Below are positions 7,455 through 62,964 of a stretch of DNA of 64,000 nt, one piece after another. The position numbers and the translations under genes were made by a program. The notes beneath the pieces are model-generated. The model had not been told where the DNA came from, searched no databases, and was given only the letters and a program-made list of their open reading frames with translations. Numbering within the stretch: the first letter of the stretch is position 1; each line of letters starts with the position of its first letter. The DNA is from Sphingomonas brevis (lineage in GTDB: Bacteria > Pseudomonadota > Alphaproteobacteria > Sphingomonadales > Sphingomonadaceae), in NCBI RefSeq assembly GCF_023516505.1, contig NZ_JAMGBB010000001.1, forward strand, positions 1,984,001 to 2,048,000. The letters are read 5' to 3'.

Positions 7455-7480
7455 AGCAGCTGGGCTAATCTGGCGCTTCA

Positions 7481-45575: not shown

Positions 45576-45622
45576 ATGGAGCGGGCGAAGGGATTCGAAC
45601 CCTCGACCCCAACCTTGGCAAG
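45576..45622 (-). repeat. Left attachment site (tRNA-Gly 3' remnant)
   Basis: It is identical over 47 bases to the 3' half of the intact tRNA-Gly at 62889-62935, including CCA, acceptor 3' strand, T arm and anticodon 3' strand. The 5' half of the tRNA is missing here, so it is not a functional tRNA. It represents the displaced original chromosomal 3' end. Confidence 0.93.
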
Positions 45623-45750
45623 TTGGTGCTCACTCGCATCCGGTTGTTTCCTGGAATGTCCGCTCGTTTCAGAATATCCCTGTTTTGTAAGGTTAACTGG
45701 CCACAAATTCTGGCTTGTCGTGCCTGACGTTGCGTTGAAGTTCCGATTAT

Positions 45751-46995: not shown

Positions 46996-47112
46996 GGGCA
47001 CCGGGGGAAACGCTGAGAATCGCCAGCTCTTATGGTGCATTGGTCACTCGGACCAGACCGCGCATCCTAGGCAAGTCCTGACAAGATCGGGGCCAATGCA
47101 GGAGCACGGTTC

Positions 47113-47331
47113 ATGGCACATAGTTTCGTCGAAAAGGAATTTCTTACGGTTGGTGAGCTCGCACAGTTCACCGGAATCAGCATCAGCACCTGGAACAAGC
47201 GGAGAGTGACCGGGCGCACGCCGCCGTTCACCAAAATCGGTCGCACGGTCCGCTATCGCAAGTCCGACGTTGAAGTGTGGCTTTCGTCGCGTTCGGTTTC
47301 GAGCACGAGCGTGACGACGCTGGACGCTTAG
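47113..47331 (+). CDS. AlpA-like HTH excisionase/regulator
   Basis: A 72-residue winged-HTH (MerR/AlpA) protein: FLTVGELAQFTGISISTWNKRR, then FTKIGRTVRYRKSDVEVWL. Such proteins activate excision and integrase control in P4-like elements. The gene is 117 bp after int and its stop lies four bases before the RepA-like gene. The last residues are Ser/Thr-rich. It is the most likely directionality factor of the island. Confidence 0.87.
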   Translation: MAHSFVEKEFLTVGELAQFTGISISTWNKRRVTGRTPPFTKIGRTVRYRKSDVEVWLSSRSVSSTSVTTLDA

Positions 47332-47335
47332 TCCG

Positions 47336-48520: not shown

Positions 48521-48523
48521 CAT

Positions 48524-48548
48524 GTGACACCCCTATGGGGTGTGTCAC
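48524..48548. other. Palindrome with TGTCAC repeats after the RepA-like gene
   Basis: Arms GTGACACCCC and GGGGTGTGTCAC (one bulged base) flank TAT, and a further TGTCAC follows at 48551-48556. It is too T-poor downstream to be a standard terminator. Position beside the RepA-like ATPase makes an origin or binding site possible. Confidence 0.4.
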
Positions 48549-48624
48549 GTTGTCACGCTTTCCCATTCGGCGTGAACTGCGTGACTGGCGCATTATCGTC
48601 CGCCTGAAAATTGCCGTCTCAGGA

Positions 48625-49044
48625 TTACGAATGGAGGTGGCAGCGGCCGCTGCGATGTAAACGTGCAAATTCGTCTGGGTCAGAATCATTCGCCAGGGCA
48701 TTGCGACATCTGCGACCAGTGCGCGTGATCCCGTCACAACGAGGCATCTGATCGAACGCATAGTAGGCTTCTAGATCAGCCACTGTGACGCCGAAAACTT
48801 TGGCCAGCCAGGCGGTATGGTTATCCAGGAATAGGGGCAAATCTACAGGTTCAACCCGAACAGTGCCCGCGCCTCCAGTCCGAGGGACCCGGGCATAGAT
48901 CGATCCGCCCCGGGCTTCTATCGCCCGCGCTAACGCGATTTTGTCGCCATCGAGCATTTCTTGCCCCACCTCATCCAGCTGCCAAATCCAAGCATCATGC
49001 CACGAAGGGTCAGACGCCAGAGCCTTTTCGCCCAATGGGCGCAT
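48625..49044 (-). CDS. Orphan protein with C-terminal Cys/His motif
   Basis: A 139-residue protein from ATG 49044 (MRPLGEKALASDPSWHDAW). The first two thirds are acidic and helical. The C-terminal 40 residues contain CDGITRTGRRCRNALAN and a final GRCHLHS, matching the C-x-x-x-T-x-x-G-x-x-C pattern of small zinc-binding modules. The frame stays open to 49206, but those residues are Ser/Gly-rich and unlikely to be translated. No function can be given. It is transcribed against its neighbours in the low-GC part of the island. Confidence 0.5.
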   Translation of the reverse strand: MRPLGEKALASDPSWHDAWIWQLDEVGQEMLDGDKIALARAIEARGGSIYARVPRTGGAGTVRVEPVDLPLFLDNHTAWLAKVFGVTVADLEAYYAFDQMPRCDGITRTGRRCRNALANDSDPDEFARLHRSGRCHLHS

Positions 49045-49789
49045 AGCTGAACTACTTGAGGCTGAACCCAGCCTTGGTTGGCCAAAGGAGCTAAAGCTAA
49101 GTTCCGCTGATTTGGTCGGACCTCGAAACCCGCCTCCTGGGCTAGCCAGCCGCAACCGATGGAAACAGTTGAAAACGCCAGCCGTGCAATCACGGCGATC
49201 GTTCAAACCTAAAAATCAAGCAGAGGGGCAGCTGTGAGTGATCGGCCCCACCTCCCTGATTTAACCCCCTTTCGGGGAGCTTTATGCGAATGGCGTCGTC
49301 AAGCCGGTTTAGCGACCGCTGGCGAGGTCTTTGGTGGTCGCTTCCAAGGTACCAAGACGGAGGTGAAAGGGGGGGGTTAGAAACGTACCCCTCAGCTGTC
49401 TTGAGGGGACCGCCCGCAAATTTTCCGCCGAAAGTGCCGCCGGCAATATTGCGCCAAGCGTCTGGCTTGCTGCTATGTTTACTGTGTCTCTAGTCGCTGC
49501 AGATTTACCAAGTTGTTTCGATCGGAGAACCTCTGGAGCCGAGTGGCATTTGTCGACCCCGGCCTCCAAATGGGTCCTAGGAGTTACCACACAAAATCAT
49601 CAGAGTACGCGCACTGGAAATGGGCTCCGAGGCCTGTCAGACGCTCGCATGTTCCAGTGGATTTGGGCCTGTAGGGGCGGAGCCGGAGAGCAAGCGAGCT
49701 GATGATCGCGTTTGCCCTTGGGTGGAAAGGCAGGCCTGTCGTTCGAGCATTGACCCCTTCGGGCTTTTACGCGTTTGTGGGTCGCTGAT
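49045..49789. other. Intergenic stretch with no supported gene
   Basis: About 745 bp in which no reading frame has convincing coding character or a ribosome binding site. Two hairpins are visible: CCCC/GGGG around 49265-49277 and CCCCTCA/TGAGGGG at 49388-49408. Runs of G (GGGGGGGG at about 49369) are also present. It may hold regulatory DNA or decayed sequence. Confidence 0.5.
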
Positions 49790-50431
49790 ATGCCTTCAGA
49801 CATGAATAACAAAGAGACCACATCTGCCCTCTTCACGGCGTTGGTCGGCTTGGGCAGCTCCGCTGCGCTCGCTGCGCTGGCGCTTGGCTCAGAGCACCCA
49901 TATCGGGCAGCACTGCTCATTCTCGGCAGCGCTTTTTGCCTTGCCGGACTGATCGGGCTGGTGCTGCCTCTTTTCCTTTCCTCAAAGGCGGTGACCGCGC
50001 ACGTCCCGGATGCGGCTTCGCCGACGCCCCCCGCGCCTCTGGCGCCAACCCACCTGCGTCTTTCAGACTTCGCCTTGGCGTCCCTTGGGAAGGACGTGTC
50101 ATTGCCGGACAGAATAACTCCAGCCTTCTTGTTCGCTCAGTGCACCGGCAAGACCGATATTCAATGTGAGGGCGCAGTCGCCGTTTACGTGGGCAAGCGG
50201 CTAAGGGTCAGCGGCCCCATTCTCGCCGCGTCAAGGGTGGGCGCGAGCACCACAGTAACGATTCATCCGGTTCTCGGTGTCGACGGTCGACAGGACATCT
50301 ACATGGTATTCGAACAAGACCACGAGGAAATCAGCGTCATGCAGGTTGGTGACGTGCTGACGGCTACCGGTCGGATTACCCAGCTCAATTCATCGGGCAT
50401 GAAGCTGGCCGACTGCCGACTTGTCTCTTAG
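49790..50431 (+). CDS. Two-helix membrane protein with OB-fold-like C-terminal domain
   Basis: A 213-residue protein from ATG 49790. Two membrane helices (about residues 13-32 and 40-62) are followed by a Pro/Ala linker and a soluble domain of about 110 residues. That domain has FAQCTGKTDIQCEGAVAVYVGKRLRVSGPI ... GDVLTATGRITQLNSSGMKLADC, which resembles the tRNA_anti-like OB-fold found in some membrane proteins of mobile elements. The residues given show the strand pattern only. Function is unknown; membrane-tethered OB-fold proteins are plausible nucleic-acid or small-ligand sensors. Confidence 0.5.
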   Translation: MPSDMNNKETTSALFTALVGLGSSAALAALALGSEHPYRAALLILGSAFCLAGLIGLVLPLFLSSKAVTAHVPDAASPTPPAPLAPTHLRLSDFALASLGKDVSLPDRITPAFLFAQCTGKTDIQCEGAVAVYVGKRLRVSGPILAASRVGASTTVTIHPVLGVDGRQDIYMVFEQDHEEISVMQVGDVLTATGRITQLNSSGMKLADCRLVS

Positions 50432-50451
50432 GCTATCCGGTAACTTTCGGT

Positions 50452-50480
50452 GTGACCGGTTTGGGTCGAATGCGGACATT
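50452..50480 (-). repeat. Diverged palindromic repeat, copy 4
   Basis: Read on the minus strand it is AATGTCCGCATTCGACCCAA followed by ACCGGTCAC, the same family as the copies at 6303 and 7425. It shows that the repeat also exists inside the integrated island. Confidence 0.55.
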
Positions 50481-50553
50481 CGCGAAAAGCGAAGGTGAAC
50501 GCCGGACAATAGGCATACTTGTGGACTAGCTGCACCGCTGATTACAAAGCGGT

Positions 50554-51102
50554 ATGAGCTACGCCAGCGTTATCGCAGACCTAAAGGCACTCAACAGAAT
50601 TGAGATTCTCGGCGTCGATGCGGCGGCGCACGTCGATCACATGGATGCCGAGTCTGACCGCTCGACATTAATCCTCATGGCGGCCTCTACAGAGGGACTC
50701 CTAGTCGGTCGCCTGAAGGAAATGATGCCCGGTATCAACGCTGAAGAGCGGAACCGCATTTTCGGCTTCGAAGGCCCATGCGGCAGCTTCTCCAACCGCA
50801 TTCGCATTGCGCAGGCCTTGGGGATCGTTGACCGGTCCACGAAAAAGAAATTGGAGGTCATAAAAGAGATGCGAAACGCTGCCGCGCATAGCTTCGCGCA
50901 GCTCACATTTTCGACCGCAGAAATAGTCGAAGGAGTCGCCTACCTTTTCCCCCAACAGTACCGCGAGGCATCGCTAGCTTGGCCCAACGAGATTCGAAAG
51001 GCAGCCTTCATGGGAGCCGCAAGTCGGGTCGGGCAGCAGATCGCTAACGTCGAAGCCGATTGGGAACAACTTTACAAACTTCTGAATCTTCCGCCGCATT
51101 AG
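50554..51102 (+). CDS. MltR/DUF4145-like (HEPN-type) protein
   Basis: A 182-residue helical protein. The segment SDRSTLILMAASTEGLLVGRLKEMM, then FEGPCGSFSNRIRIAQALGIV and VIKEMRNAAAHSF, follows the pattern of MltR and DUF4145 proteins, including the conserved G-SF-S-RI and RN-x-x-AH motifs. The R-N-A-A-A-H element is like the RX4-6H active site of HEPN RNases, so a toxin-like or defence-accessory role is possible. I do not identify a specific family member. It stands alone with palindromic repeats on both sides. Confidence 0.6.
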   Translation: MSYASVIADLKALNRIEILGVDAAAHVDHMDAESDRSTLILMAASTEGLLVGRLKEMMPGINAEERNRIFGFEGPCGSFSNRIRIAQALGIVDRSTKKKLEVIKEMRNAAAHSFAQLTFSTAEIVEGVAYLFPQQYREASLAWPNEIRKAAFMGAASRVGQQIANVEADWEQLYKLLNLPPH

Positions 51103-51115
51103 CAGACGCACGGCT

Positions 51116-51146
51116 AATGTCAGTTTTTGGATAGAAAGTGGACATG
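51116..51146 (-). repeat. Diverged palindromic repeat, copy 5
   Basis: The minus strand reads CATGTCCACTTTCTATCCAA followed by AAACTGACATT. The TGTC and GACA arms and the CTTTC-ACCCA-like loop place it in the same repeat family, though heavily changed. Confidence 0.45.
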
Positions 51147-51329
51147 AGCCGAATTTGATCTTGCACCCGAGTGCCTAATTGACCATCTTCCTAGGCATTG
51201 TGCAGCCGAAAGCGTGCGGGGACCACCAGGGTGGCTGCTTAAAAACCCCGAAGTGTCCCTAGACCGCTGGTCTCATGCGCGGCGTTCGGCTCATCAAGAG
51301 ACCCGCGCACGATAACGAGGAGGAGCTAA

Positions 51330-51452
51330 ATGCAGCTCACCTTCGCCATCGAGACTAGCCGGCCATGCGGGGCATCCTTCCGCTTGGCCTTGGGAATTTT
51401 TATTCCCTTGGGCCTAGTGGGTGTGGTTCTCAGCCTCTTAGGGCTGTCTTGA
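51330..51452 (+). CDS. 40-residue membrane peptide
   Basis: A short ORF of 40 residues: MQLTFAIETSRPCGASF, then a hydrophobic helix of about 22 residues (RLALGIFIPLGLVGVVLSLL) and GLS. Two features argue that it is real: a very strong ribosome binding site (GAGGAGGAG, four bases before the ATG), and a GAAA-loop terminator that begins four bases after the stop. The peptide would be a single-pass inner-membrane protein. It could be a type I toxin-like or regulatory peptide, but no antisense RNA gene is evident. Confidence 0.6.
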   Translation: MQLTFAIETSRPCGASFRLALGIFIPLGLVGVVLSLLGLS

Positions 51453-51455
51453 TGG

Positions 51456-51493
51456 AAGGGGGCGCTCCGGAAACGGGGCGTCCCTTTCTTTTT
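51456..51493 (+). terminator. Rho-independent terminator of the small membrane peptide
   Basis: A stem of about 13 bp (GGGGGCGCTCCG with CGGGGCGTCCC, some G-U pairs) is closed by a GAAA tetraloop and followed by TTTCTTTTT. It begins four bases after the small ORF ends. Confidence 0.85.
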
Positions 51494-51508
51494 ATGGGCC
51501 TGTTTGAG

Positions 51509-51534
51509 TCCGCAATGGGTCGAAAGCGGTCATT
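51509..51534 (-). repeat. Palindromic dispersed repeat, copy 6
   Basis: On the minus strand it reads AATGACCGCTTTCGACCCAT followed by TGCGGA, identical to the repeat at 7425 over 25 bases except for the truncated last arm. This shows recent exchange between chromosome and island. Confidence 0.75.
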
Positions 51535-51568
51535 AGCTACTCCAAACATTACGGGGTGAAAAATGTGA

Positions 51569-51805
51569 CTACCCGTCTGCACTCAAGTTTATTGCGGAGA
51601 CCGGTACGCGGACATGGTGGTCACCGGGGTCTCTGTACCAGTGCGGCAGGACGGACATTTCGAAACCAATTGGTGCCACAGAATCACTGAATGTCCCCGC
51701 TTGCAGTCCCCTTGCAAATTCCTCTGCTAGATCCGCCGGCACGTAAATGTTGAGGATCGCCCCGTCGCCAAGTGGCCTCAGGTAGACTTCGACCCCTTTG
51801 CCCAT
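51569..51805 (-). CDS. Small orphan protein
   Basis: A 78-residue protein from ATG 51805 (MGKGVEVYLRPLGDGAILNI). It has alternating strand pattern at the N-terminus (ILNIYVPADLAEEFARG) and an acidic body; no motif is recognised. A GGGGG ribosome binding site lies about six bases upstream on the coding strand. It runs opposite to the small membrane peptide and is probably an island accessory gene. Confidence 0.45.
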   Translation of the reverse strand: MGKGVEVYLRPLGDGAILNIYVPADLAEEFARGLQAGTFSDSVAPIGFEMSVLPHWYRDPGDHHVRVPVSAINLSADG

Positions 51806-51901
51806 GCTCACCCCCTTTCGCCTTGCCTATTTGGCAATGCAACGAGCATACCGCCCACAATAGCTGCCTGCCATTGGAATTTGCCATAAAGGGAGCGCGT
51901 T

Positions 51902-52114
51902 GTGACCGTAATTCGGGACGTTAGAAACCTAATCTCGCGCTTGGCGCCGCAGGCAATCTGCGACGACTGCATAACCGAGAAACTCGGCCTGACTGTAAGA
52001 CAGCACGCAAACCACAAGACCCGTGAACTTGCCAATTTCCCCGGCTTTGAGCGGCGAAAAGGCCGCTGTGATTCATGCACCAGTGAGAAACTTGTCATTC
52101 GAAAAAGAGACTGA
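51902..52114 (+). CDS. Small zinc-ribbon-like protein
   Basis: A 70-residue protein from a GTG start with GGGAG seven bases upstream. Two Cys pairs are visible, ICDDC near residue 20 and CDSC near residue 57, with a basic stretch between them (VRQHANHKTRELANF). The spacing fits a small zinc-binding module fused to an HTH-like helix pair. It may bind nucleic acid. The family is not known to me. Confidence 0.5.
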   Translation: MTVIRDVRNLISRLAPQAICDDCITEKLGLTVRQHANHKTRELANFPGFERRKGRCDSCTSEKLVIRKRD

Positions 52115-52516
52115 TCAGCCCCGCCTCAGTACCACTTCGAAATGACCGAGGTCGGCTGCGTCAAATTCGGTGATCTGCCAGTAGGTCCCGGCCCGGGCAC
52201 CTTCTACAATCCAGGGCTGAGCTGATCCGTAGCCCTGCCCGGGAATCCCACTGACAATAACCACGTCGACCTTCCCGCCGAACTCCTGCTTCGCCCTTTC
52301 AAGATGCCGGATGCGCTTCTGGTTGCCCGGCTTCGATGCCCATTTCGCCGGCGGATCTGCATGGATGCGCGTATTCATCCACATCAAGCCGTTCCTCACG
52401 CCCATTTCCTTTGTCCAAAGTGAGATGCAGATGCCGTCTGGCTTCTCTGCACTCCAATCCTGGCGCGGAACTTCCAATTCGTACCCCAGCTCGTTGAATG
52501 CCTCCCCAAACTTCAT
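52115..52516 (-). CDS. Orphan protein of unknown function
   Basis: A 133-residue protein from ATG 52516 (MKFGEAFNELGYELEVPRQD). GGAGGAAG stands directly before it on the coding strand, which decides the start over the in-frame start at 52570. The sequence is mixed alpha/beta with many Trp residues and a conserved-looking KVDVVIVSGIPGQGYG. I recognise no domain. It converges on the zinc-ribbon-like gene with no gap between the stops. Confidence 0.5.
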   Translation of the reverse strand: MKFGEAFNELGYELEVPRQDWSAEKPDGICISLWTKEMGVRNGLMWMNTRIHADPPAKWASKPGNQKRIRHLERAKQEFGGKVDVVIVSGIPGQGYGSAQPWIVEGARAGTYWQITEFDAADLGHFEVVLRRG

Positions 52517-52670
52517 GCACTTCCTCCACTTCCCCGGGCTTTGCACGAGCCTTGAGTTGCATCTTTCCAAAAGGCAGATCGGCTTTCCATTCCTAATCTC
52601 CGCTTCCCACCCATGCGGACGTTAGCCGCCGCTTGCAGAATATAGAGATGGATCATTCGGAAGAGCGGCG

Positions 52671-53699
52671 ATGCTAACTGAGATTCTTCCGCGATTGAAA
52701 CGGCTGCTCGGCTCATTTTGGCACCTTCGAAGATATAAAGTGCGCCTTCGCGTTCGCCTTGGGAAGTCGCCGACCAGTGATGACAAGTCGCTCACATTCC
52801 TATTCGCGGGCCGTCCCGCCACTATCAGCCCCCAAGATAAGGACCACGTACTCCGGGATACAAAGTGGCTCGTGTTCTCGGCAAAGGGTTTTAGATCCGA
52901 GAACGCTGCGTCCGTATACGGGAGCCGCTTGCGCGCACTCCTTGAAATAGCCGGCGTGTCTGTGCGTCTCGGCATAGACGTTGGCGACGACAAACCAACT
53001 GGATGGATGAATGAAAAGTGGGCCCGCACTGAGGGCTTCATCCAGCCCCATGAGCGATTGCTGCCAAACGTTCACGGATTGATGGTCATCGAGGACGATG
53101 CCTTTACGAAGTTCCCAATTATGGCTTTTCAAGGTGTCGTGACGGCGGACCCGAACGCGCTAATCCAGGCACTGATCGACCTTGATCGATCGCCAGTCTC
53201 GACCGTGGCGATGGCGCCCTCGGCGCTTCGTATCATGAACCTCGCCCTCGCGAGCCCGGAGCCACTCAGCCAAATTGTACTAGCCTTCTCTGCCATTGAG
53301 GAACTCGGTCAGAATGAGACTTCGACTCCAGCCCAGAGTGCGTTGCTGCACGAACTCGCTGTCGAAGTAGGAAAGGGTTTTGGTCATGTCACGATAACCG
53401 GCGCGGAGCGTCAAGAGGTAGCTGCATCCATTGGCCGTAGCTTGCACAAACTGGGGCTTCGGCAAGGCGTCGTGCGAGTTCTGCGTTCCTACGGCATGAA
53501 CAGCGAGGTCAAGGAATGGGACCGGCTTTATGCACTTCTTAGTGGCCACTTTCACGGAACCGCACGGCTATCCGAGCAAGACGAAGCTCGGTTGGCGTTT
53601 GACAGTCAAACGATCTGCGGCCGCATAATCCTGACGATCGCGAAGAAGGAGGGCGTGTCATTGCCATCCATCACAGCAACGCATTTCGGCCCAGTCTAA
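52671..53699 (+). CDS. Large orphan protein with HEPN-like C-terminus
   Basis: A 342-residue protein. The N-terminal two thirds are mixed alpha/beta with no known motif. The C-terminal part is helical: IVLAFSAIEELGQNE, SIGRSLHKLGLRQGVVRVLR and EWDRLYALLSGHFHG. The last has the R-x4-6-H spacing typical of HEPN RNase active sites and the preceding helices fit the HEPN bundle. A role as an antiphage or toxin-like RNase is possible. It is the last gene before the restriction locus and lies 155 bp upstream of it. Confidence 0.5.
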   Translation: MLTEILPRLKRLLGSFWHLRRYKVRLRVRLGKSPTSDDKSLTFLFAGRPATISPQDKDHVLRDTKWLVFSAKGFRSENAASVYGSRLRALLEIAGVSVRLGIDVGDDKPTGWMNEKWARTEGFIQPHERLLPNVHGLMVIEDDAFTKFPIMAFQGVVTADPNALIQALIDLDRSPVSTVAMAPSALRIMNLALASPEPLSQIVLAFSAIEELGQNETSTPAQSALLHELAVEVGKGFGHVTITGAERQEVAASIGRSLHKLGLRQGVVRVLRSYGMNSEVKEWDRLYALLSGHFHGTARLSEQDEARLAFDSQTICGRIILTIAKKEGVSLPSITATHFGPV

Positions 53700-53854
53700 C
53701 GCGATCTAGACACGTTTGTGCTTCGTCGCATTGCTGACATGAGTTCCGTCGGGTTCGTCCGATTGGCAATTATCAGTGGCACAACGTACTGCTACCACTT
53801 TCAAATGCTGGATGACTCCGTATGTTAAATCCGGTTTACGGGGGGTAGCGTAAT

Positions 53855-56014
53855 TTGTCCGATAATGATCTCGATCAGGCATTCGAGTCATTCCTCGAAG
53901 AGCTGCAGTTCGCCCAGCAAGCGGAGGGGGAGAGCCCCAAGGCAGCCTTCTTCCGCATGTACGCCGATCTTGCAGCAGAGAATGGCGATTCAATCGATCT
54001 TATCCACACGCCCGCAAAGAAGGAGGGTCAGGGCAGCTACAGGATCGATGGTTCGGCATTCGATGCCGAGCGCGGCGTCCTTTACTTGGCCGTTTGCGAC
54101 TTCAGGGAAGGCAGCGCTCTCGAAACCCTCAATGCCTCGCACATCGAGACGCTGACGCAACGGGTTCGCAGGTTCGTCGAACTGGCGTTGGATGAAGCCT
54201 TTCTTGAACGGTTCAGCAAAAGTGATCCCGAGTTCGAGGCGGGCTATCCGCTAGCCTTCCAAGCAGCGGCGGTGCGCAGAATCCGGGTCATTCTCTTTTC
54301 CAACGCACGCCTTGCTACCCGGCGCCCTCCCGAACCTGCGCCGGAAATCGGCGGAAGGCCGGTTGTGTACAACTTTCTCGATTTTGCCCGCTACGCAGAC
54401 ATACTCCGGTCGCGAAGCAGCCCCGAGCCTATCGAGGTGGACCTCATTGCTCTAAATGGAACTCCTGTTCCGTGCCTCCCGGCTTTCAATGATGCTGACG
54501 ACTATCAGTCGTACTTGGTGGCGCTGCCCGGAAAACTCCTCGCCGACATTTACGGCCTCTACGGAGCTCGGCTGCTCGAACAGAATGTCCGTACGTTCCT
54601 GCAGGCAAAGACCAAAGTAAACAAAGGCATCCTGGCTACGCTGAAGGAAACGCCGGAGATGTTCTTCGCTTACAACAATGGACTGACTGCCACAGCGTCC
54701 GGGGTTCGTACGGCATCCATGCCGGACGGGTCCATGGCCATCGCGGCAATCGACAACCTCCAGATTGTCAACGGCGGCCAGACGACCGCCTCGATACTCT
54801 ATGCACGTGACCGGTCTGCTTCAGAGCTTGATCGCGTATATGTGCAAATGAAGCTTTCAGTCGTCAGGCCCGAGCTCGTCGAGGATATCGTCCCAAAGAT
54901 TTCCCGGTTCGCGAACACGCAGAACAAGGTCAACGAAGCCGATTTCTTCGCGAGCCACAAATTCCACGTCACGATGCAACAGATTTCCAGGCGTCTTATG
55001 GCCCCGCCAAGACCCGGCATGACCGGTGGCTCGAAGTGGTTCTACGAACGCGCACGAGGACAGTACCGGGACGGAAAAGCCTACGGGACATTAAGGGAAA
55101 AGCAGCGCTTCGAAGCGGAATTCCCGCCTGCGCAGCTCATTGACAAGACGGATCTTGCCAAGTTCGAGACCACCTATGCATGCCTGCCGCACATAGTTTG
55201 CCTGGGGGGGCAGAAATGCTTCCTGCACTTTGCAGAAAAGATCGAAGCGGAGTGGCTGACATCCGAGCTTTCCTTCAACGACGACTGGTACCGGGCCGTT
55301 GCTGCGAAGGCGCTGCTGTTCCGCTGGACTGACCGGATGATCGGTCAATCCGACTGGTACCGCGAAGATCGAGGGTACAAATCCCAGACTGTGGCGTACA
55401 CGCTCGCGAGGCTCGTCAGCCACGTGAAAAAGTCGGGCAAAGCCGGTCTCAATCTGCAGATCATCTGGAATTCGCAGGATATACCGGAAGAGATTTGCGA
55501 AGCCCTGCGCCAGCTCGCCCCGCAGATTTCGAGGGCGATCAAGGACACGCCTGAAACCGTTCGAAATGTCGGAGAGTATTGCAAGAAGCAGGCGTGTTGG
55601 AACGCGATCGAACGGATGAGCTTGGAAGTGCCGGAAATTCCCGAGGCGCTGATGCTCGATGTTGAGGAGGCACGCGTCTCTGCGAAGGAAGGACGGGCTG
55701 TCCGGCAAATCGACAAGGGCATCGAGCTGGAAGCAAAGGTCCTCGAACTGATTCCCCATGCCCAGGCGCTTCACACGCATGCGACGCGTCTGCAGCTACT
55801 GACGCCCCAATCGCGCACGGCGTTGTCCAAGCTGGCTGCCGGTCGATTCCCGCTTCCACATGGCGACCTGCGAGCCATCGGTGACCTGTTCGCTCGCATG
55901 TCCGCAGCGGGCTTCGATCCCTCTTCCCTTATTGCAAACCGAGAATCTGCGGACTCTCCAACCTCGAGCTCCATCCGGCTTTCGTCCTCGGCGGTTAGGA
56001 CCGTGAGGATCTGA
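53855..56014 (+). CDS. AIPR-family protein (abortive infection phage resistance)
   Basis: A 719-residue AIPR protein. The family core is clear: LLEQNVRTFL (about residue 242), VNKGI, PEMFFAYNNGLTATA (about 267-281) and LQIVNGGQTTASI (about 300-312). A helical C-terminal region of about 250 residues follows. AIPR proteins are named after a lactococcal phage-resistance protein; their activity is not well known. The start is TTG 53855 behind a GGGGGG ribosome binding site. It opens the five-gene operon, ending 40 bp before the SNF2 helicase. In related predicted systems AIPR occurs with MutL-like ATPases. Confidence 0.85.
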   Translation: MSDNDLDQAFESFLEELQFAQQAEGESPKAAFFRMYADLAAENGDSIDLIHTPAKKEGQGSYRIDGSAFDAERGVLYLAVCDFREGSALETLNASHIETLTQRVRRFVELALDEAFLERFSKSDPEFEAGYPLAFQAAAVRRIRVILFSNARLATRRPPEPAPEIGGRPVVYNFLDFARYADILRSRSSPEPIEVDLIALNGTPVPCLPAFNDADDYQSYLVALPGKLLADIYGLYGARLLEQNVRTFLQAKTKVNKGILATLKETPEMFFAYNNGLTATASGVRTASMPDGSMAIAAIDNLQIVNGGQTTASILYARDRSASELDRVYVQMKLSVVRPELVEDIVPKISRFANTQNKVNEADFFASHKFHVTMQQISRRLMAPPRPGMTGGSKWFYERARGQYRDGKAYGTLREKQRFEAEFPPAQLIDKTDLAKFETTYACLPHIVCLGGQKCFLHFAEKIEAEWLTSELSFNDDWYRAVAAKALLFRWTDRMIGQSDWYREDRGYKSQTVAYTLARLVSHVKKSGKAGLNLQIIWNSQDIPEEICEALRQLAPQISRAIKDTPETVRNVGEYCKKQACWNAIERMSLEVPEIPEALMLDVEEARVSAKEGRAVRQIDKGIELEAKVLELIPHAQALHTHATRLQLLTPQSRTALSKLAAGRFPLPHGDLRAIGDLFARMSAAGFDPSSLIANRESADSPTSSSIRLSSSAVRTVRI

Positions 56015-56054
56015 TGGCGAAATTGCCCAAGTTGTGCGGCGCTAGGCGCGAAGC

Positions 56055-57983
56055 ATGACCGTCGAGGCAGAGTCGGTGCCAGCCGAATGGCAGCGGCATG
56101 GTGCTCGTCTGGACATCATTGTTGATGGCGATCCGCAGCAAGCCTCGAGTGAAGAAATATATGCCCTGGTATTCGATAGCTCGGACGCGATCAGGGGCAG
56201 AAAGATTTCCATCGCGACTCGGCCGGATGGACTCTCATTTTCGCGGTACCCCGCGGCGCTCGCGGTAGCAGTCGTATCGGCAGAGTCCGGCATGGGGGGT
56301 CTCGCCTGCGCCGTACGCGCGGAAGCCGGCGGCGTGGCCGTCGATATTTCACTCGAGGATTCGGCACCTGACCACTGCATTATCGGTGACCGTTGGTTTC
56401 CGCTGGCCACGGGTGCGCGTGAATCCGTTCGGATAACTTTGAAGTCGGCAGGCATACTCGAACCGGGGCCACTTTCCCTCAAGCAGTATCTCGAGCTTCG
56501 AAAGATCAGCGCAGTGCTTCCGGGCTTTTGCGACACTATCCCGCAAGGTGACATCAAGGCAGACTTCACGTCCGACCGCGAGCCTGCTGAACTCGTATCG
56601 TTCCGCGGTAATCTGTACCCCTATCAGCGGGACGGATGGCAATGGCTCACTTACATTTGGAGCGAGCGGCTGGGCGCAATTCTCGCTGACGAGATGGGAC
56701 TCGGCAAAACTATCCAATTGATCGCGCTTCTGGCATCGCCCGAGCGTGACGAGGCAGCTCCATCACTGGTCGTAGGTCCTGCTACTCTGATGGAGAACTG
56801 GCGCCGCGAAATCGACAGGTTCGCGCCAGGTTTAAAGACAGTAATCCATCAGGGAGCGCGCCGGACGGGTGACTATCGCGCATTACTGCCATTCGATGTG
56901 GTCATCACGTCCTATGACACTGTCGTTCGTGACGGAAGCATGTTTCATATGGTCGACTGGCGCATCGTCATTCTGGATGAAGCACAGGCCATCAAGAATC
57001 CGGACACGGCTCGCGCCAAGGCGGTGAAGGAGCTCCGCAGGCGATGCGGCATTGCCGTAACCGGAACGCCGGTTGAAAATCGACTCAGTGACCTGTGGTC
57101 GCTTTGCGACTTCGCCCTGCCTGGGCTGCTCGGCGACCTTGAATCCTTCGAGCTGAACTTCCCTGACGATAGACTGGGGGCTGCGGCGCTCGAGCCGCTC
57201 ACCTCGCCAATCATGCTCCGGCGGCGAGTGGCGGAGGTGGCCAAGGACCTACCCGACCGCATCGACATTCCGCAGGTTTTGCTTTTGTCGGACGACGAGG
57301 CGGCGGAGTACGAACGCGTCAGGCTTGAGACAATCGCAGAATATCCTCAAGCCGCGAGCCTCGTCGCGCTGACGCGATTGCGAATGTTCTGCGCACATCC
57401 TGGATTGCTCGACGATGTTCCGATCAGCGTTGCAGCAGGCCTGCAGTTTACCAAGCTCCAGCGGTTGTTCGAGATTGTGGATGAGGTCTTCAGTGCACGG
57501 GAAAAGATCCTCGTATTCACGTCCTACAACAGGATGGCGGACCTCATCGTCCGCGTGGTTCGGGAGCGCTATGGCAACTACGCCGCGGTCATCAACGGCG
57601 AAACGCCAATCGATCAGCGGCAGTCTGTAGTTGACCGATTCACTCAGGAGACCGGCGCAGCCCTGCTCGCCCTCAATCCGAAGGCAGCTGGAACGGGGCT
57701 CAACATAACCGCCGCGACGCACGTCGTTCATTACAATCTGGAATGGAATCCAGCAGTTGAAGACCAAGCGTCCGCGCGGGCTCACCGGCGCGGACAGGAT
57801 CGGCCGGTCACGGTTCATCGTCTCTATTTTGCCGACAGTGTGGAGGAGACTGTCAACGACCGTCTCGATCGCAAGCGCGACCTTTCGGAGACTGCGGTCG
57901 TCGGTGTCGATGGCAAGGAGGAAACGATTGCCGACATTTCCAAGGCGCTGCAGATGAGCCCGGTCAGAAAGGTGGCGCTGTGA
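56055..57983 (+). CDS. SNF2-family helicase/translocase
   Basis: A 642-residue superfamily II translocase. About 190 N-terminal residues have no known domain. The motor follows: Q-type YPYQRDGWQWL, Walker A DEMGLGKT (about 211-218), Walker B LDEAQA (about 306), GTPVENRLSDLWSL, LVFTSY, AGTGLNITAATHVVHYNLEWNP and the arginine-finger motif RAHRRGQDRPV (about 573). This is the Rad54/SWI2 type, which moves along double-stranded DNA without unwinding it. The stop overlaps the next start by four bases. It takes the motor place that Z1 ATPases have in other AIPR/MutL-type loci. Confidence 0.92.
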   Translation: MTVEAESVPAEWQRHGARLDIIVDGDPQQASSEEIYALVFDSSDAIRGRKISIATRPDGLSFSRYPAALAVAVVSAESGMGGLACAVRAEAGGVAVDISLEDSAPDHCIIGDRWFPLATGARESVRITLKSAGILEPGPLSLKQYLELRKISAVLPGFCDTIPQGDIKADFTSDREPAELVSFRGNLYPYQRDGWQWLTYIWSERLGAILADEMGLGKTIQLIALLASPERDEAAPSLVVGPATLMENWRREIDRFAPGLKTVIHQGARRTGDYRALLPFDVVITSYDTVVRDGSMFHMVDWRIVILDEAQAIKNPDTARAKAVKELRRRCGIAVTGTPVENRLSDLWSLCDFALPGLLGDLESFELNFPDDRLGAAALEPLTSPIMLRRRVAEVAKDLPDRIDIPQVLLLSDDEAAEYERVRLETIAEYPQAASLVALTRLRMFCAHPGLLDDVPISVAAGLQFTKLQRLFEIVDEVFSAREKILVFTSYNRMADLIVRVVRERYGNYAAVINGETPIDQRQSVVDRFTQETGAALLALNPKAAGTGLNITAATHVVHYNLEWNPAVEDQASARAHRRGQDRPVTVHRLYFADSVEETVNDRLDRKRDLSETAVVGVDGKEETIADISKALQMSPVRKVAL

Positions 57984-58399
57984 TCAGCGCGATTTCGAAG
58001 GTCCTGAGTGCGAACGACACTGGCGAGACCGGGGCGCACCAAGCCGGCATACTCGTGCCGAAGGATCCGACGATCCTGAGCTTCTTTCCGACCCTCCCAA
58101 CCGACGTCAAGAATCCGAGAATTCACCTGTATTTTCGCGATGACGAAGGCAGCCAGTGGGAGTTCGCCTTTATTTATTACAACAACCGGCAGTTCGGTGG
58201 CACGCGGAACGAATACCGGCTCACCCGAATGACACCGTTCATCAACAGCAACGGGCTGCATGAGGGTGACGAACTGATCCTCGAAAAGCACGATGGAGGA
58301 GTTCGGACCGTCCGGTTCAAGCGGCGCCATACTCCCGTGGTAACTGACGGCGTGCTCACACTCGGAACGGCTTGGAAGGTCGTCGGAATTGAAAAGTAG
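57980..58399 (+). CDS. Stand-alone EcoRII-N-like (B3-type) DNA-recognition protein
   Basis: A 139-residue protein that matches only the N-terminal effector-binding domain of restriction enzyme EcoRII, which reads CCWGG. Shared signatures are LSANDTG (residues 9-15), HQ (20-21), IYYN (65-68) and FGGTRNEYRLTR (72-83), corresponding to FGKTRNEKRITR of EcoRII. The specificity arms keep His, Arg76, Glu78 and Arg80 but change the two Lys to Gly74 and Tyr79. There is no PD-(D/E)XK nuclease domain. It therefore seems to be the separate sequence-recognition subunit of the restriction complex. It is coupled to the SNF2 gene by a four-base overlap. Confidence 0.85.
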   Translation: MISAISKVLSANDTGETGAHQAGILVPKDPTILSFFPTLPTDVKNPRIHLYFRDDEGSQWEFAFIYYNNRQFGGTRNEYRLTRMTPFINSNGLHEGDELILEKHDGGVRTVRFKRRHTPVVTDGVLTLGTAWKVVGIEK

Positions 58400-58411
58400 G
58401 AAGAATGCGTC

Positions 58412-60016
58412 ATGACGATTGAAACGGTCGATACCCCTCCCGATCCCGAACGGATGATCGAGGGCCTCCGCGACACCGGCTACAAGTTCAACACTGCCAT
58501 TGCCGACATCATCGACAACTCGATTGCCGCCCGTGCGACAGTCGTCGATCTCCAGATCCTCATGGATTTGCGGAACAACATCCGCATCTCGATCGCCGAT
58601 AACGGCGAGGGAATGGATCGGGATGGCCTGATCAACGCCATGACATACGGTTCAAGGCGCCGGTCCGATCCTGCAAGCCTCGGTAAGTTCGGGCTGGGGC
58701 TGAAGACAGCATCGACAGCTTTCTCGAAGCGACTCTCGGTCATCTCCCGCGCAGGTGCGTCCGAGCCGTTGCTTGAGGCTACTTGGGACCTCAAGCATGT
58801 GGCGGACAAAGGTTGGGAGCTGCTTCTCAACGACGAGCCGGATGAGGAAGCAATCGACCACCTGAACACCGTCGCGCCGAAGTCGTCGGGAACGGTGGTT
58901 CTGTGGACTGACGTAGACCGCCTGATCAAGGACTATGTCACTCCGGGCGGGAATGCCGCGCAGAACGCCCTGAACCGTGCAATTGCTGGTTTGCGGAGCC
59001 ATCTCAGCATGGTTTTCCAGAGATTCCTCGACCATTTGGACAGCCGCGCGCGCGATGTTGAAATCAGGGTCAACGGCGAGAAGATCCTTCCTTGGGATCC
59101 CTTCTGCACCGACGTCGCCGACAAGGTAGGCGACGACAAGGTCAAGGTCGCGATCGGTGATGCCAAGGAGGCCGAGTTCCAGTTGCGGGCCTACATCCTC
59201 CCCCGAAAGGAGGAATTCACTACCGACGCGGCCCTGAAGCAATCCCGCCTCGGCAACGACACGCAGGGAATCTACATCTACCGCGAAAACCGCCTGATCC
59301 AGGACGCGACGTGGCTCAGCATGTATTCGAAAGAGCCGCACGGCTCGCTGCTGCGGGTGGAGTTCTCATTCACCCACGAGCTCGATGAGGTTTTCGATAT
59401 CGATTTCAAAAAGTCGCAGATCAGCCTCAACGAAGACCTATGGCTTCATATCAGGGACCGCTTCCTCACCGCTCCGCGCCGCGAGGCTAACAACCGCTAT
59501 CGCCAGGGCAAGCGTAGCGAGGCCCGCAAGAAGGCTGCCGGCTACCACGACTCGTCAAATCGCAATATCGGCTCGAAGGAGGACGAAATCGGCGGCGCCA
59601 ATGTAAACGTAGAAAATCCCAACACGGGCATGTCCCAGCTGACTAACCGCAACGGCACTTTCAGGATCAAGCTCAAAGTCGGGCACGCCCAGAAGCCGGG
59701 CGAGCTATTCGTCCAGCCGGTTGATCAGCTTGACGACAATGCGCTGTTCGAACCGACGATCATAGATGGGCACAAGGCGGTGCGGATCAACACGTCCCAC
59801 CCATACTACCACAAGGTCTATGTCCCCAACCTGGCACAGGGGGTTACCATTCAAGGAATGGATTCGCTGTTGTGGGGACTTTGCATTGCCGAACTGAGCA
59901 CCATCAGCGACAGTACGGCGCAGCATTTCGAAGAGATGCGTTTCGAAGTCTCGCGTATTCTTCGCAAGCTGGTCGAGGATCTGCCGGAACCGGACCTAGA
60001 GGATGTGGCAGCCTGA
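58412..60016 (+). CDS. GHKL ATPase (MutL/MORC-like) of the restriction operon
   Basis: A 534-residue ATPase of the Hsp90/MutL/gyrase fold. The ATP site is complete: IADIIDNSI (residues 30-38, Asn36), DNGEGM (63-68) and LGKFGLGLKTAS (90-101). The catalytic base position holds Asp32 instead of the usual Glu, as seems normal in this branch. A transducer region and a second domain of about 250 residues follow. Such ATPases close a clamp on DNA upon ATP binding. Predicted bacterial MORC-like proteins lie in restriction operons with SNF2 or Z1 motors. The stop overlaps the HNH start by 14 bases. Confidence 0.88.
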   Translation: MTIETVDTPPDPERMIEGLRDTGYKFNTAIADIIDNSIAARATVVDLQILMDLRNNIRISIADNGEGMDRDGLINAMTYGSRRRSDPASLGKFGLGLKTASTAFSKRLSVISRAGASEPLLEATWDLKHVADKGWELLLNDEPDEEAIDHLNTVAPKSSGTVVLWTDVDRLIKDYVTPGGNAAQNALNRAIAGLRSHLSMVFQRFLDHLDSRARDVEIRVNGEKILPWDPFCTDVADKVGDDKVKVAIGDAKEAEFQLRAYILPRKEEFTTDAALKQSRLGNDTQGIYIYRENRLIQDATWLSMYSKEPHGSLLRVEFSFTHELDEVFDIDFKKSQISLNEDLWLHIRDRFLTAPRREANNRYRQGKRSEARKKAAGYHDSSNRNIGSKEDEIGGANVNVENPNTGMSQLTNRNGTFRIKLKVGHAQKPGELFVQPVDQLDDNALFEPTIIDGHKAVRINTSHPYYHKVYVPNLAQGVTIQGMDSLLWGLCIAELSTISDSTAQHFEEMRFEVSRILRKLVEDLPEPDLEDVAA

Positions 60017-60851
60017 TCACGAGCTGCTCGCGAGGCAGCTCACCGATCATTTCGGCATTGCCCTAGAAAGCCGGCCTCTCCCTGCTTCAGGGAGCTATCC
60101 ATCTTTCGAACTGGTTCCGACCGACTGTGCTCCAAGCGACGCATTCCGGCTAGTCATTCGCATCAAATGGCGCAGCCTCGAAATGCAGTTCGAACCGGGG
60201 GCCTTTGCTGGGGAATTGGTCAGTCAGATGGGGACCGCGGGGCCAGAGCGCGTCGACCTGTTCCGGCATCTCGCCGAGAAATGTACCGCCCAACGGGCCA
60301 AGGTTTCGATGCAGGTTGACGGCAATTCCGTTGCGCCTGATGCCCCCGAGTCGTGGCCAGAGAATTGGCGACGGGTCGAGATCGGACTTTCCAAGTCGCC
60401 TGCCATGGTCAACACAGAAAGCTCCGAGGACAACAATGCGGAGCTGCAGCTGTGGACCCGCCGTTTCACCGGGCTGGTGTTTGCGCTGGTACCGGTCGAG
60501 GAAACATCTCAGAGCCTCATTGAGAACGCCGAGGGTCTACCCGAAGGGTCGGTCCTGCGCGTCGAGGTCAACCGTTACGAGCGAAGCCGGATCAACAGGG
60601 CGGCATGCATCGAGATTCACGGAGCCGTGTGCAAGGCTTGCGATTTCAGCTTCGCAGAAGCCTACGGGCCCGTCGGCGAGGGGTTTATCCATGTCCACCA
60701 CGTCACGCCGGTCTCGATGCTTGGTCCGGATTACACGGTGAACCCATGCACGGACTTGGTTCCACTCTGCGCAAACTGCCACGCCATCGCGCACCGGAGA
60801 ACGCCGCCATTCACTCTCGATGAAATCCGGGCATTGCGACAGGGCGGCTAG
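60003..60851 (+). CDS. HNH endonuclease
   Basis: A 282-residue protein. The N-terminal 190 residues form an unrecognised domain that probably mediates complex assembly. The C-terminal HNH domain (about residues 198-265) has RINRAACIEIHGAVCKACDF, then HVHHVTPVS with the HH pair, NPCTDLVPLCANCHAIAHRR with the second Cys pair and final His. It is of the McrA-like type with a Cys4 structural zinc site and all catalytic residues seem present. It is the likely DNA-cutting subunit of the operon. It converges on vsr with four bases of overlap. Confidence 0.9.
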   Translation: MWQPDHELLARQLTDHFGIALESRPLPASGSYPSFELVPTDCAPSDAFRLVIRIKWRSLEMQFEPGAFAGELVSQMGTAGPERVDLFRHLAEKCTAQRAKVSMQVDGNSVAPDAPESWPENWRRVEIGLSKSPAMVNTESSEDNNAELQLWTRRFTGLVFALVPVEETSQSLIENAEGLPEGSVLRVEVNRYERSRINRAACIEIHGAVCKACDFSFAEAYGPVGEGFIHVHHVTPVSMLGPDYTVNPCTDLVPLCANCHAIAHRRTPPFTLDEIRALRQGG

Positions 60852-61318
60852 CCCCGCCCCGACGCCCTGTTGCCACTGATTTCTCCAGTCCACTCATCGC
60901 AGCGGAGCCAGCGGTCGAGGGCGGCCAGCAGAGCGGCATCCGCCAGTCTGGTCCGGCCCGTGAGAGCGCACTCCCATACCATTAGTTGCCGCCAGCCAAG
61001 TTGCTCGAGTTTGGCTCTGACGACGGTGTCGCGACGGCGGTTGGTTTCGAGCTTGCTTGCCCACTCTTCGGCGTTCGTCGCCGGCAGGCGAAACCGATGG
61101 CAGCCATGGCTGTGCCAAAAGCATCCGTGAACATGGATTACCGCCCGCCATCGCTTCAACACGAGATCGGGTTTGCCTGGAAGATCCGGACGATGGAGCC
61201 GGAATCGGAAACCTGCCCTATGAAGCAGTCGGCGTAGAATCATTTCCGGCTGCGTATTTTTTGCCCGGATGCCCGACATCATCAGGCTGCGCTTCTCGGC
61301 GGAGACTATGTCAGCCAA
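60848..61318 (-). CDS. vsr: Very short patch repair endonuclease Vsr
   Basis: Vsr nicks 5' to a T mispaired with G in hemideaminated Dcm sites, starting repair of 5-methylcytosine deamination. The 156-residue protein keeps the E. coli numbering: Glu25, Asp51 (GKPDLV), His64, Cys66, His69, His71, Cys73 (HGCFWHSHGC) and Cys117 (VWECAL). All catalytic and zinc residues are present, although Thr63 of E. coli is Val. The TTG start at 61318 overlaps the dcm stop by eight bases, as in the E. coli dcm-vsr pair. This confirms that the methylase modifies cytosine at C5. Confidence 0.95.
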   Translation of the reverse strand: MADIVSAEKRSLMMSGIRAKNTQPEMILRRLLHRAGFRFRLHRPDLPGKPDLVLKRWRAVIHVHGCFWHSHGCHRFRLPATNAEEWASKLETNRRRDTVVRAKLEQLGWRQLMVWECALTGRTRLADAALLAALDRWLRCDEWTGEISGNRASGRG

Positions 61319-62552
61319 TCTTGGCGCGAGTCCCTAGCCGTGCCCCGCCCCTAGCCGTGTCCCGCGCCAGCATTTTTGTGAGCGCAGGTTCCATGTACTT
61401 CGCAACCGCCTCAACCACCGGCACCACGACTGCGTTGCCGAACTGACGGTAGGCCTGCGTATCCGAGACCGGGATTTCCCACCTGCGATCGCCGCGGTCG
61501 AATCCCATCAGCCTGGCACATTCTGTGGGAGTGAGTCGGCGCGGCCGGGTGCCACGTTGCGCGACGAGGATCTCGGACCCATCCTTGTGATACCGAGCCG
61601 ACAGGGTCCGGGCGATGTCATCCTTTCCAAAGAGACTGAAACCGAACCCGTTGCCGGCTGTCTCGTGCTTCCTGCGATAGTCCTGCAGATACTCCCAGAG
61701 CCTCGGCGTCAGCGTATATTTTGAATCAACCTCGTTGTGTGACTGCAGGACAGCGCCGAGCCTTGGCCATTCCAGTTCGGGGGGCAGCATCCTGTCAAAA
61801 TCATCGAAGCTGAACCCGACGTCGTCGCGGAAACCCGCAATGAATATTCGCTCCCGCTTCTGCGGGACCCATGGAGCCGCGCTGATCACCCGAAAGCTGA
61901 TCGCATAGCCAAGGTCCTCCTTGAGCGTTTTGCGAATAACCTCAAAGGTACGGCCCTTGTCATGACGTTTGAGGTGTTTGACGTTTTCGAGGAGGAATGC
62001 TGCCGGCCGGTGGTAGCGGAGGATGCGCTCAATCTCGAAGAAGAGGTTTCCCTGCTTGATGTCATCGAAGCCGTGCTTCCGGCCAAGCGAGTTTTTCTTG
62101 GACACCCCCGCCAGCGAAAAAGGCTGGCAAGGAAAGCCGGCAAGAAGAACATCATGTCCCGGGATCAGGGAAGGATCCGCACCGTAGGGAGCAATATCGC
62201 CGACCATCATGTGGTCATCACCATCCGGAAAGTTTCGCGAATAGGTTTTTTGCGACCATCGGTCCCATTCGCTGGTAAAAACGCATTTTCCTCCGATCGC
62301 CTCGAAGCCAAGCCGCAAGCCCCCGATACCCGCGAAAAGATCGATAAACCTGAAGTTCGCGCGCGGCTGGTGCCTCACGCGTCTGGACGCGAGGTCTTGG
62401 AGTCGTTCGGTTACCAGCTTTGGCACCGGTATGTCGCCCTTGATGAAACGCTTGATATGTCGTTGCGAGTAGCCGAGCTCGGCAGCGGCTTCCTTCAGGC
62501 TCAATCCGGATCTGCGAAGCTCCGCTTCAAACCCGCTGGTCATTCCATGCAT
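61311..62552 (-). CDS. dcm: Dcm-like DNA (cytosine-5) methyltransferase with N-terminal HTH
   Basis: A 413-residue C5-cytosine methyltransferase. Motif I is FIDLFAGIGGLR, motif IV with the catalytic Cys (about residue 140) is GFPCQPFSLAGVSKK, motif VI ENV, motif VIII PQKRERI and motif X QAYRQFGNAVV. The target-recognition segment KYTLTPRLWEYLQDYRRKHE ... GNGFG closely follows E. coli Dcm, so CCWGG (or CCNGG) is the likely site. About 55 N-terminal residues form an HTH (LSLKEAAAELGYSQRHIKRF), as in M.EcoRII and M.SsoII, where it controls transcription. It converges with the restriction operon. Confidence 0.95.
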   Translation of the reverse strand: MHGMTSGFEAELRRSGLSLKEAAAELGYSQRHIKRFIKGDIPVPKLVTERLQDLASRRVRHQPRANFRFIDLFAGIGGLRLGFEAIGGKCVFTSEWDRWSQKTYSRNFPDGDDHMMVGDIAPYGADPSLIPGHDVLLAGFPCQPFSLAGVSKKNSLGRKHGFDDIKQGNLFFEIERILRYHRPAAFLLENVKHLKRHDKGRTFEVIRKTLKEDLGYAISFRVISAAPWVPQKRERIFIAGFRDDVGFSFDDFDRMLPPELEWPRLGAVLQSHNEVDSKYTLTPRLWEYLQDYRRKHETAGNGFGFSLFGKDDIARTLSARYHKDGSEILVAQRGTRPRRLTPTECARLMGFDRGDRRWEIPVSDTQAYRQFGNAVVVPVVEAVAKYMEPALTKMLARDTARGGARLGTRAKIG

Positions 62553-62888
62553 GTTTTGTTTTATCCGGATTTTCTATCTGGGTCATTTATGGACACTCTG
62601 TCGATTTCATTCCCAGGACGCAACCTAAATTGAGATGGATCGAAGTCCAGGCAAAGGTGGGCGACGACGAGATTGCTATCGGTCAAATCCACCAGGATTT
62701 GGCGTGCTGCGAACGAAAATTTCAGCGAATGGCGGTGAAAGCGCTCTTAGCTCAGCTTCCCGGGCCGAGAAAGTAGCGATATCGGGGCTGTCGTTGAGTC
62801 CAGCGCGGTTTCGAGCGAAGCGTGATTGCTTGGCGATTGCTGAGGCTCGACCGCGTAGTTGATCTACATGGCCAAGTATTTGAAAACT
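62553..62888. other. dcm upstream region with candidate operator
   Basis: A 336-bp gap at the right end of the island, with no gene I can support. The inverted repeat GACACTCTGTC (62592-62602) lies about 40 bases before the dcm start. It resembles in form the GGACA/TGTCC operator bound by the N-terminal HTH of M.SsoII-type enzymes. A short ORF at 62635-62862 has no coding character. Excision-related arm sites might also lie here. Confidence 0.4.
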
Positions 62889-62935
62889 ATGGAGCGGGCG
62901 AAGGGATTCGAACCCTCGACCCCAACCTTGGCAAG
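62889..62935 (-). repeat. Right attachment site inside tRNA-Gly
   Basis: The second 47-bp copy of the direct repeat, forming the 3' half of the intact tRNA. The identity with the left copy ends at the edge of the anticodon loop (62935), which suggests strand exchange in or near the anticodon loop. Confidence 0.92.
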
Positions 62936-62964
62936 GTTGTGCTCTACCCCTGAGCTACGCCCGC
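62890..62964 (-). tRNA. tRNA-Gly (GCC anticodon)
   Basis: A complete 75-base tRNA on the minus strand with encoded CCA. It folds with a 7-bp acceptor stem (GCGGGCG/CGCCCGC), discriminator T, D arm GCTC...GAGC, anticodon stem AACCT/AGGTT with loop TGCCA and anticodon GCC, and T arm GAGGG-TTCGAAT-CCCTT. Its 3' half belongs to the integrated island; the 5' half is chromosomal. It reads GGC and GGT glycine codons. Confidence 0.95.

Follow-up and report, generated by a model that had tools for sequence, protein, structure and literature searches.

A putative restriction-modification locus of the MORC-SNF2-HNH kind with an AIPR gene and an exchangeable-looking site reader in Sphingomonas brevis

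The seven genes and their products

The window analysed here is a stretch of 64,000 nucleotides from Sphingomonas brevis (RefSeq assembly GCF_023516505.1, contig NZ_JAMGBB010000001.1, positions 1,984,001 to 2,048,000), and it contains a locus of seven genes that resembles a restriction-modification (R-M) system. Five of the genes are co-directional on the forward strand and encode an AIPR protein (719 residues, TTG start; 53855-56014), a SWI2/SNF2 ATPase predicted to be a DNA translocase (642 residues; 56055-57983), a lone EcoRII-N or B3-like protein predicted to read the target site (139 residues; 57980-58399), a GHKL ATPase of the MORC type (534 residues; 58412-60016) and an HNH nuclease with a McrA-like C-terminal domain and an N-terminal part of no assigned family (282 residues; 60003-60851). 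The reverse strand carries genes for a Vsr mismatch endonuclease (156 residues; 60848-61318) and a Dcm-type C5-cytosine methyltransferase with a helix-turn-helix-like (HTH-like) stretch at its N-terminus (413 residues; 61311-62552). By the coordinates of the open reading frames, gaps of 40 bp and 12 bp separate AIPR from SNF2 and EcoRII-N from GHKL, whereas SNF2 and EcoRII-N overlap by 4 bp, GHKL and HNH by 14 bp, HNH and vsr (tail to tail) by 4 bp, and vsr and dcm by 8 bp. The seven frames and their spacings agree with those given by an earlier sequence-only reading of this DNA, and the family assignments proposed there are upheld by Pfam, with NCBIfam and PADLOC agreeing for most of them.

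The SNF2 protein matches the Pfam families SNF2-rel_dom (PF00176, 3e-56) and Helicase_C (PF00271, 2e-18). The Pfam match of the EcoRII-N protein (PF09217, 1e-17) covers residues 6-84 only; its profile matches include the EcoRII-N structure 3hqf (2e-15) as well as plant B3 domains. It retains the LSANDTGxTGxHQ and TRNExR blocks of EcoRII, and the residues Y67, N68, T75, R76, E78 and R80 are identical in all 82 loci (see below) that possess this protein. The GHKL protein belongs to HATPase_c_3 (PF13589, 7e-27), its best match among solved structures is MORC2 (2e-9), with MutL matches being weaker, and residues 286-296 (GIYIYRENRLI) conform to the MORC signature GhXhhpXXRhl. The strict form of this signature occurs in 94 of 101 related loci, the window included, and also in five of seven distant control proteins, so it marks MORCs in general. 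The N-box of MutL and gyrase carries a catalytic glutamate; 99 of the 101 loci, and likewise most of the distant controls, have an aspartate at this place.

The Pfam score of the HNH protein lies exactly at the cut-off (PF01844, 3e-4, 21.4 bits), and an NCBIfam search with this protein gave no match. The family call is backed by a match of residues 171-265 to the McrA structure 6ghc (1e-5), the rest of McrA not being covered, and by the residues C210, C213, H232, H233, C256, C259, H260 and H264, conserved in 97 of 98 loci; the PADLOC model mREase_IV also matches (1e-7). Vsr is recognised by both Pfam (PF03852, 1e-27) and NCBIfam (TIGR00632, 134 bits, above the cut-off of 98). The methyltransferase matches DNA_methylase (PF00145, 1e-76), with its N-terminal HTH matches staying below the cut-off, and scores 412 bits against the NCBIfam Dcm subfamily model PRK10458, below the cut-off of 710. 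Its target-recognition segment is 53% identical to that of E. coli Dcm, the GNGFG and TLSARYxKDGxEIL blocks being common to both. No second methylase of the Dcm family was found in the same genome at E-values up to 1e-5.

The AIPR protein is firmly assigned to its family (PF10592, 8e-93; AIPR_N PF22879, 1e-20) and has no match in the PDB by sequence. Its AlphaFold2 model (predicted local distance difference test, pLDDT, 81; predicted template modelling score, pTM, 0.48) gave as top Foldseek matches 1y88 (AF1548; probability 0.89, E 0.13) and 6ut7_G (a McrB-McrC entry; probability 0.80, E 0.18), both of which we take to be of the PD-(D/E)xK-type fold. These matches are a weak hint that the N-terminal part of the protein may have a PD-(D/E)xK-like fold. 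D65 is kept in 16 of 17 aligned sequences and an acidic residue at position 82 in 15 of 17, with the lysine two places further on being absent; because of this missing lysine and the weakness of the fold matches we do not call the AIPR protein a nuclease.

Recurrence of the gene set among relatives

The relatives of the locus were selected by the GHKL protein only, giving 101 loci (the window, L012-L110 and L127) that include nine plasmids. L091 and L127 are apparently one record, leaving about 100 distinct loci, and near-identical records remain, so the loci are not independent. The 80 genome loci are the best 80 of 533 relatives (590 stretches matched) among the matches listed for the GHKL query, and the counts thus describe near relatives; in the plasmid L012 a frame change interrupts the GHKL gene, of which only the pieces were used. 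A well-flanked set comprises 71 loci, not including the window, that have 5 kb or more of sequence to each side.

SNF2 is present in 99 of the 101 loci, HNH in 98, Dcm in 96, EcoRII-N in 82, Vsr in 77 and AIPR in 18. The corresponding numbers for the 71 well-flanked loci are 71, 70, 70, 58, 59 and 13, whereas none of seven control loci picked by more distantly related GHKL proteins has SNF2, EcoRII-N or HNH of the families found in the window. The association of these genes is far beyond chance. Among 38 plasmid records matching the GHKL protein, nine cover at least 80% of it, and all nine carry SNF2, EcoRII-N, GHKL, HNH, Vsr and Dcm, with a relative on a Pseudomonas putida plasmid carrying AIPR too. 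A reverse search of a sample of 398 genomes from the phylum detected PF09217 in 12 of them: nine matches are genes for EcoRII-type nucleases or a fragment of such a gene, one is a frame of 331 residues adjoining dcm/vsr, and the remaining two, namely the gene in the window and a frame of 150 residues in another genome, also near AIPR, both lie beside SNF2. The sequence-only reading had set recurrence in other genomes as one of its checks, and the gene set does recur by all three routes (the GHKL-picked loci, the nine plasmids and the reverse search).

The genes occur in two orders, SNF2-EcoRII-N-GHKL-HNH in 68 loci (EcoRII-N not being present in all of them) and GHKL-HNH-SNF2-EcoRII-N in 31, with two loci cut before SNF2. 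In both orders EcoRII-N closely trails SNF2, starting within about 120 bp of its end in 78 of 82 loci, and HNH trails GHKL in the same way (91 of 98 loci), which points to two putative working pairs, a reader with a motor (EcoRII-N/SNF2) and a clamp with a nuclease (GHKL/HNH). The conserved core consists of SNF2-reader and GHKL-HNH with the methylase, whereas AIPR, EcoRII-C and a sigma-like protein vary from locus to locus. The last of these, a further accessory gene product with a weak sigma-70 region-4 or MzaA-like match, is encoded in L019 (13712-15877), and similar proteins (frames of about 550-770 residues) occur in L071, L075, L080, L086, L092-L094 and L096. In L074 (9992-16398, Eggerthellaceae) two GHKL genes flank HNH and a type II nuclease match lies beside the methylase.

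An EcoRII-C nuclease is found near the core in 19 of the 71 well-flanked loci, and none of the 71 has both it and AIPR (chance 0.011 if the loci were independent, relatedness being ignored). AIPR is an accessory of the locus. Outside the 71, the contig-cut L040 has both AIPR and an EcoRII-C nuclease. Since the nuclease sits nearby in these 19 loci, the SNF2-MORC engine appears to have been added there to an EcoRII-type R-M pair. In one of the 19, L037 (Metabacillus niabensis; 5263-7554, reverse strand), the methylase, EcoRII-N and EcoRII-C form a single frame of 764 residues upstream of an SNF2-EcoRII-N-GHKL-HNH set on the opposite strand. Frames of 135-198 residues near the core in L031, L072, L084 and L105 match EcoRII-C type nucleases of plasmid relatives in their N-terminal region only (positions ~10-124).

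Co-variation of the site reader and the methylase

EcoRII-N is missing from 19 of the 101 loci, two of which end at a contig edge, and a sensitive profile search for its remnants in these 19 found none (best E 0.48). A profile search places another protein family, here called X, in 13 of them, with its gene directly upstream of SNF2 (for example L042 7215-8039 and L045 6916-8046, plus 11 further loci), and in none of the 82 loci with EcoRII-N. Family X proteins are about 265-285 residues long; a longer form of about 375 residues has an additional N-terminal domain, similar to the product of a separate gene in L042 and L057. Two loci without EcoRII-N and X possess a third family, Z (about 317 residues), encoded after HNH in L091 (= L127; 12362-13318) and directly after GHKL in L109 (6602-7549), where no HNH of the window family was found. 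Families X and Z have no match in NCBIfam or PADLOC and nothing above the Pfam cut-offs. In the model of family X, residues 10-220 mostly reach a pLDDT of about 90 or higher.

The methylases divide along the same line. A GHxxRK motif in the target segment is present in 15 of the 16 scorable loci without EcoRII-N and in none of 76 with it, and the target segments of the EcoRII-N loci resemble E. coli Dcm and two M.EcoRII-type proteins. On the methylase tree the presence of EcoRII-N needs a single change (branch support 93; again one in a repeat tree), whereas gene order needs six, in contrast to one on the GHKL tree; methylases therefore seem to have been exchanged between the two engine lineages, though not across the line that separates the readers. 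The trees of the engine itself give differing pictures. Five changes in EcoRII-N presence are needed on a GHKL tree (FastTree), of which well-supported branches force only one; a tree of SNF2 and GHKL from 40 chosen rows, Z loci included, needs two, both forced by well-supported branches, and the alternative of one clade is rejected on it (approximately unbiased test, p-AU 0.0011), with the caution that long branches are involved. We regard about two independent joint switches of reader and methylase as suggested, not proven, by these trees.

The earlier proposal that an EcoRII/Dcm-type site is recognised by EcoRII-N as a subunit of its own gains strength from the methylase tree, the target segments and the GHxxRK split. 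It may be extended to the idea that the site reader is a cassette that can be exchanged and is paired with a fitting methylase, EcoRII-N going with the Dcm/EcoRII-type target domain and X or Z with the GHxxRK-type one on the same SNF2-MORC engine, an idea to which we give an even chance. Several observations weigh against it. EcoRII-N, X and Z are all absent from L074. A fold search with the family X model against solved structures gave no match (best E 1.1), and with no recognisable fold its role as a reader is suggested by position only. Finally, a 48-row tree of SNF2, GHKL and HNH, restricted to the window gene order and leaving out 13 names (among them L091, L109, L127 and L074) plus eight near-duplicates, shows the loss of EcoRII-N as a single event, so that only about two events underlie the co-variation. 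If the cassette idea is true, labour would be divided in a type I-like way, the reader being a separate protein that can be swapped in, and family X would represent a novel class of DNA reader without a recognisable fold.

Predicted function, alternatives and genomic setting

The locus is probably a mobile, ATP-dependent R-M system of the MORC-SNF2-HNH kind, here in a version that includes AIPR. Family membership, motifs, gene order, recurrence and the co-variation of the reader with the methylase target domain can be read from the sequences themselves, and from these we infer every biochemical step, the exact site and any anti-phage activity. Dcm would methylate CCWGG-like sites of the host DNA and so protect it, while Vsr would repair the T:G mismatches arising from deamination of 5-methylcytosine at Dcm sites. 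The lone EcoRII-N protein would bind the same CCWGG-like site in its unmethylated state, as found on DNA entering the cell, and load or trigger the SNF2 translocase, its usual gene neighbour; the MORC GHKL dimer would then close on DNA with ATP and gate the neighbouring HNH nuclease, which would cut. AIPR, which some loci carry where a full EcoRII-type nuclease is found in others, may serve as an accessory effector or as a back-up.

Some points speak against this explanation or parts of it. The C-terminal domain of the HNH protein is closest to McrA, a 5-methylcytosine-specific enzyme, and could thus point to an attack on methylated DNA. Within the 76 EcoRII-N loci, the window's target segment is one of the least identical to that of E. 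coli Dcm, which makes a CCWGG site likely, not certain. The seven genes do not form one fixed unit, as had been supposed: AIPR is optional, and Brevundimonas basaltis (L022, GHKL 73% identical) has the same five genes in one direction, and neither Dcm nor Vsr was found there in the roughly 10 kb flanking GHKL on each side. Moreover, we found no published experiment on the locus or a close relative in the literature searched.

It is unlikely that the genes are independent neighbours without a joint function, that is, an AIPR abortive-infection gene, an orphan Dcm/Vsr pair and a SNF2-MORC-HNH machine. The place and order of AIPR are the same in L021 and L022 as in the window, AIPR presence needs six changes on the GHKL tree, and Dcm lies near the core in all but five of the 101 loci. 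We give slightly less credence to methylation-linked DNA repair, in which Vsr would nick T:G in Dcm sites, the MutL/MORC-like ATPase would couple this step, and SNF2 and HNH would process the strand. The frequency of Vsr (59/71) and Dcm (70/71) in well-flanked relatives and the relation of the GHKL protein to MutL would fit it, and a possible recruitment to repair was mentioned by Iyer et al. (PMC2292703), but 12 of the 71 loci have no Vsr found near, and AIPR and EcoRII-C are partners unlike those of housekeeping repair. The locus, furthermore, lives in an integrase-bearing tRNA island (described below) and on plasmids, and its presence is patchy: a GHKL match at E<=1e-20 occurs in nine of 385 genomes of the class, with this SNF2 family only in the window and the genome G196.

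Least probable, by a small step, is a type IV-like, methylation-dependent system in which the McrA-like HNH protein would attack foreign modification not mimicked by Dcm and EcoRII-N would only regulate. McrA is indeed the best solved match of the HNH protein, and the mREase_IV match agrees with it, but the similarity to McrA is limited to the HNH domain; the methylase, moreover, stays near in 70 of 71 relatives and its target-domain class tracks the reader, as self-protection predicts.

The gene combination, whose novelty the sequence-only reading had implied, was already described by Iyer, Abhiman and Aravind in 2008 (PMC2292703), and the window is a further case of this kind of locus. They reported operons of MORC GHKL, SWI2/SNF2, HNH, VP1/RAV (B3), DCM and VSR proteins, named AIPR in a figure legend as a gene of many R-M operons, and predicted that bacterial MORC relatives act in restriction systems. 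The window shares with their second MORC group (the SWI2/SNF2 type) the GHKL+S5 ATPase with the MORC signature, the SWI2/SNF2 ATPase in the same operon, the frequent C5-methylase and Vsr, and a nuclease (HNH or EcoRII-like, accompanied in some by a VP1/RAV protein; HNH and EcoRII-N in the window). In contrast to the mode of action outlined here, they proposed DNA looping, and their main text contains no methylase-tied reader role, accessory exclusion or replacement reader family, nor the order AIPR-SNF2-EcoRII-N-MORC-HNH. AIPR as an accessory and an exchangeable-looking reader thus look like additions to that description. L096, a relative from Erythrobacter sp. SD-21, may be their 'Esp.'.

As the sequence-only reading had suggested, the locus is related to Mza without being a member: PADLOC and NCBIfam find the GHKL protein MzaB-like and the AIPR protein MzaE-like, and some relatives carry the protein with the weak MzaA-like match mentioned above, but the scores are below the family cut-offs (184 of 850 bits for MzaB, 306 of 1050 for MzaE). 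The type IIE enzyme EcoRII shares with the window reader the motifs of its effector domain, and the window methylase is related to M.EcoRII-type proteins; the difference is that EcoRII-N is a separate protein here, and that neither Pfam nor our own profiles detected an EcoRII-C catalytic domain in the window locus. CglI and NgoAVII likewise combine a C5-methylase, a site-reading B3 domain and an SF2 ATPase; in these systems the B3 domain needs no other part to bind the site, and cleavage depends on the hydrolysis of large amounts of ATP by the SF2 partner (PMC4267653). A GHKL ATPase with a nuclease is also found in VcSduA (paraMORC3-Shedu), where mutants show that the GHKL glutamate and the nuclease lysine are both required for phage defence; this is one fused protein with DUF4263, and the part of the source consulted mentions no motor, reader or methylase (PMC12137116).

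The locus in the window is compact, with all parts present, and its relatives predict that a reader and a methylase exchanged together would confer a new target site on the same engine. In animals and plants, MORC proteins act in the silencing and compaction of DNA, and we found no published test of the SNF2 branch of bacterial MORC operons in the literature searched. If the prediction on joint exchange is true, a bacterial MORC machine would become directly testable, restriction specificity would lie in one small free protein, and a new reader family could be named.

The seven-gene locus is best read as the distal cargo of a 17.3-kb island (45576-62935) integrated at a tRNA-Gly gene. Exact direct repeats of 47 bp, an integrase, the tRNA gene and a lower GC content (55-62% between 44 and 63 kb of the window, as opposed to about 64% around) support this reading. 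The left attachment repeat (45576-45622), an exact copy of the 3' end of tRNA-Gly, adjoins a tyrosine integrase gene on the forward strand (45751-46995; 414 residues, GTG start; PF00589 2e-15, PF13356 2e-12), and the right repeat (62889-62935) overlaps the tRNA-Gly(GCC) gene on the reverse strand (62890-62964). Other genes of the island include those for an AAA_25 ATPase (47336-48520, forward strand; 3e-31) and a DUF4145 protein (50554-51102, forward strand; 6e-6).

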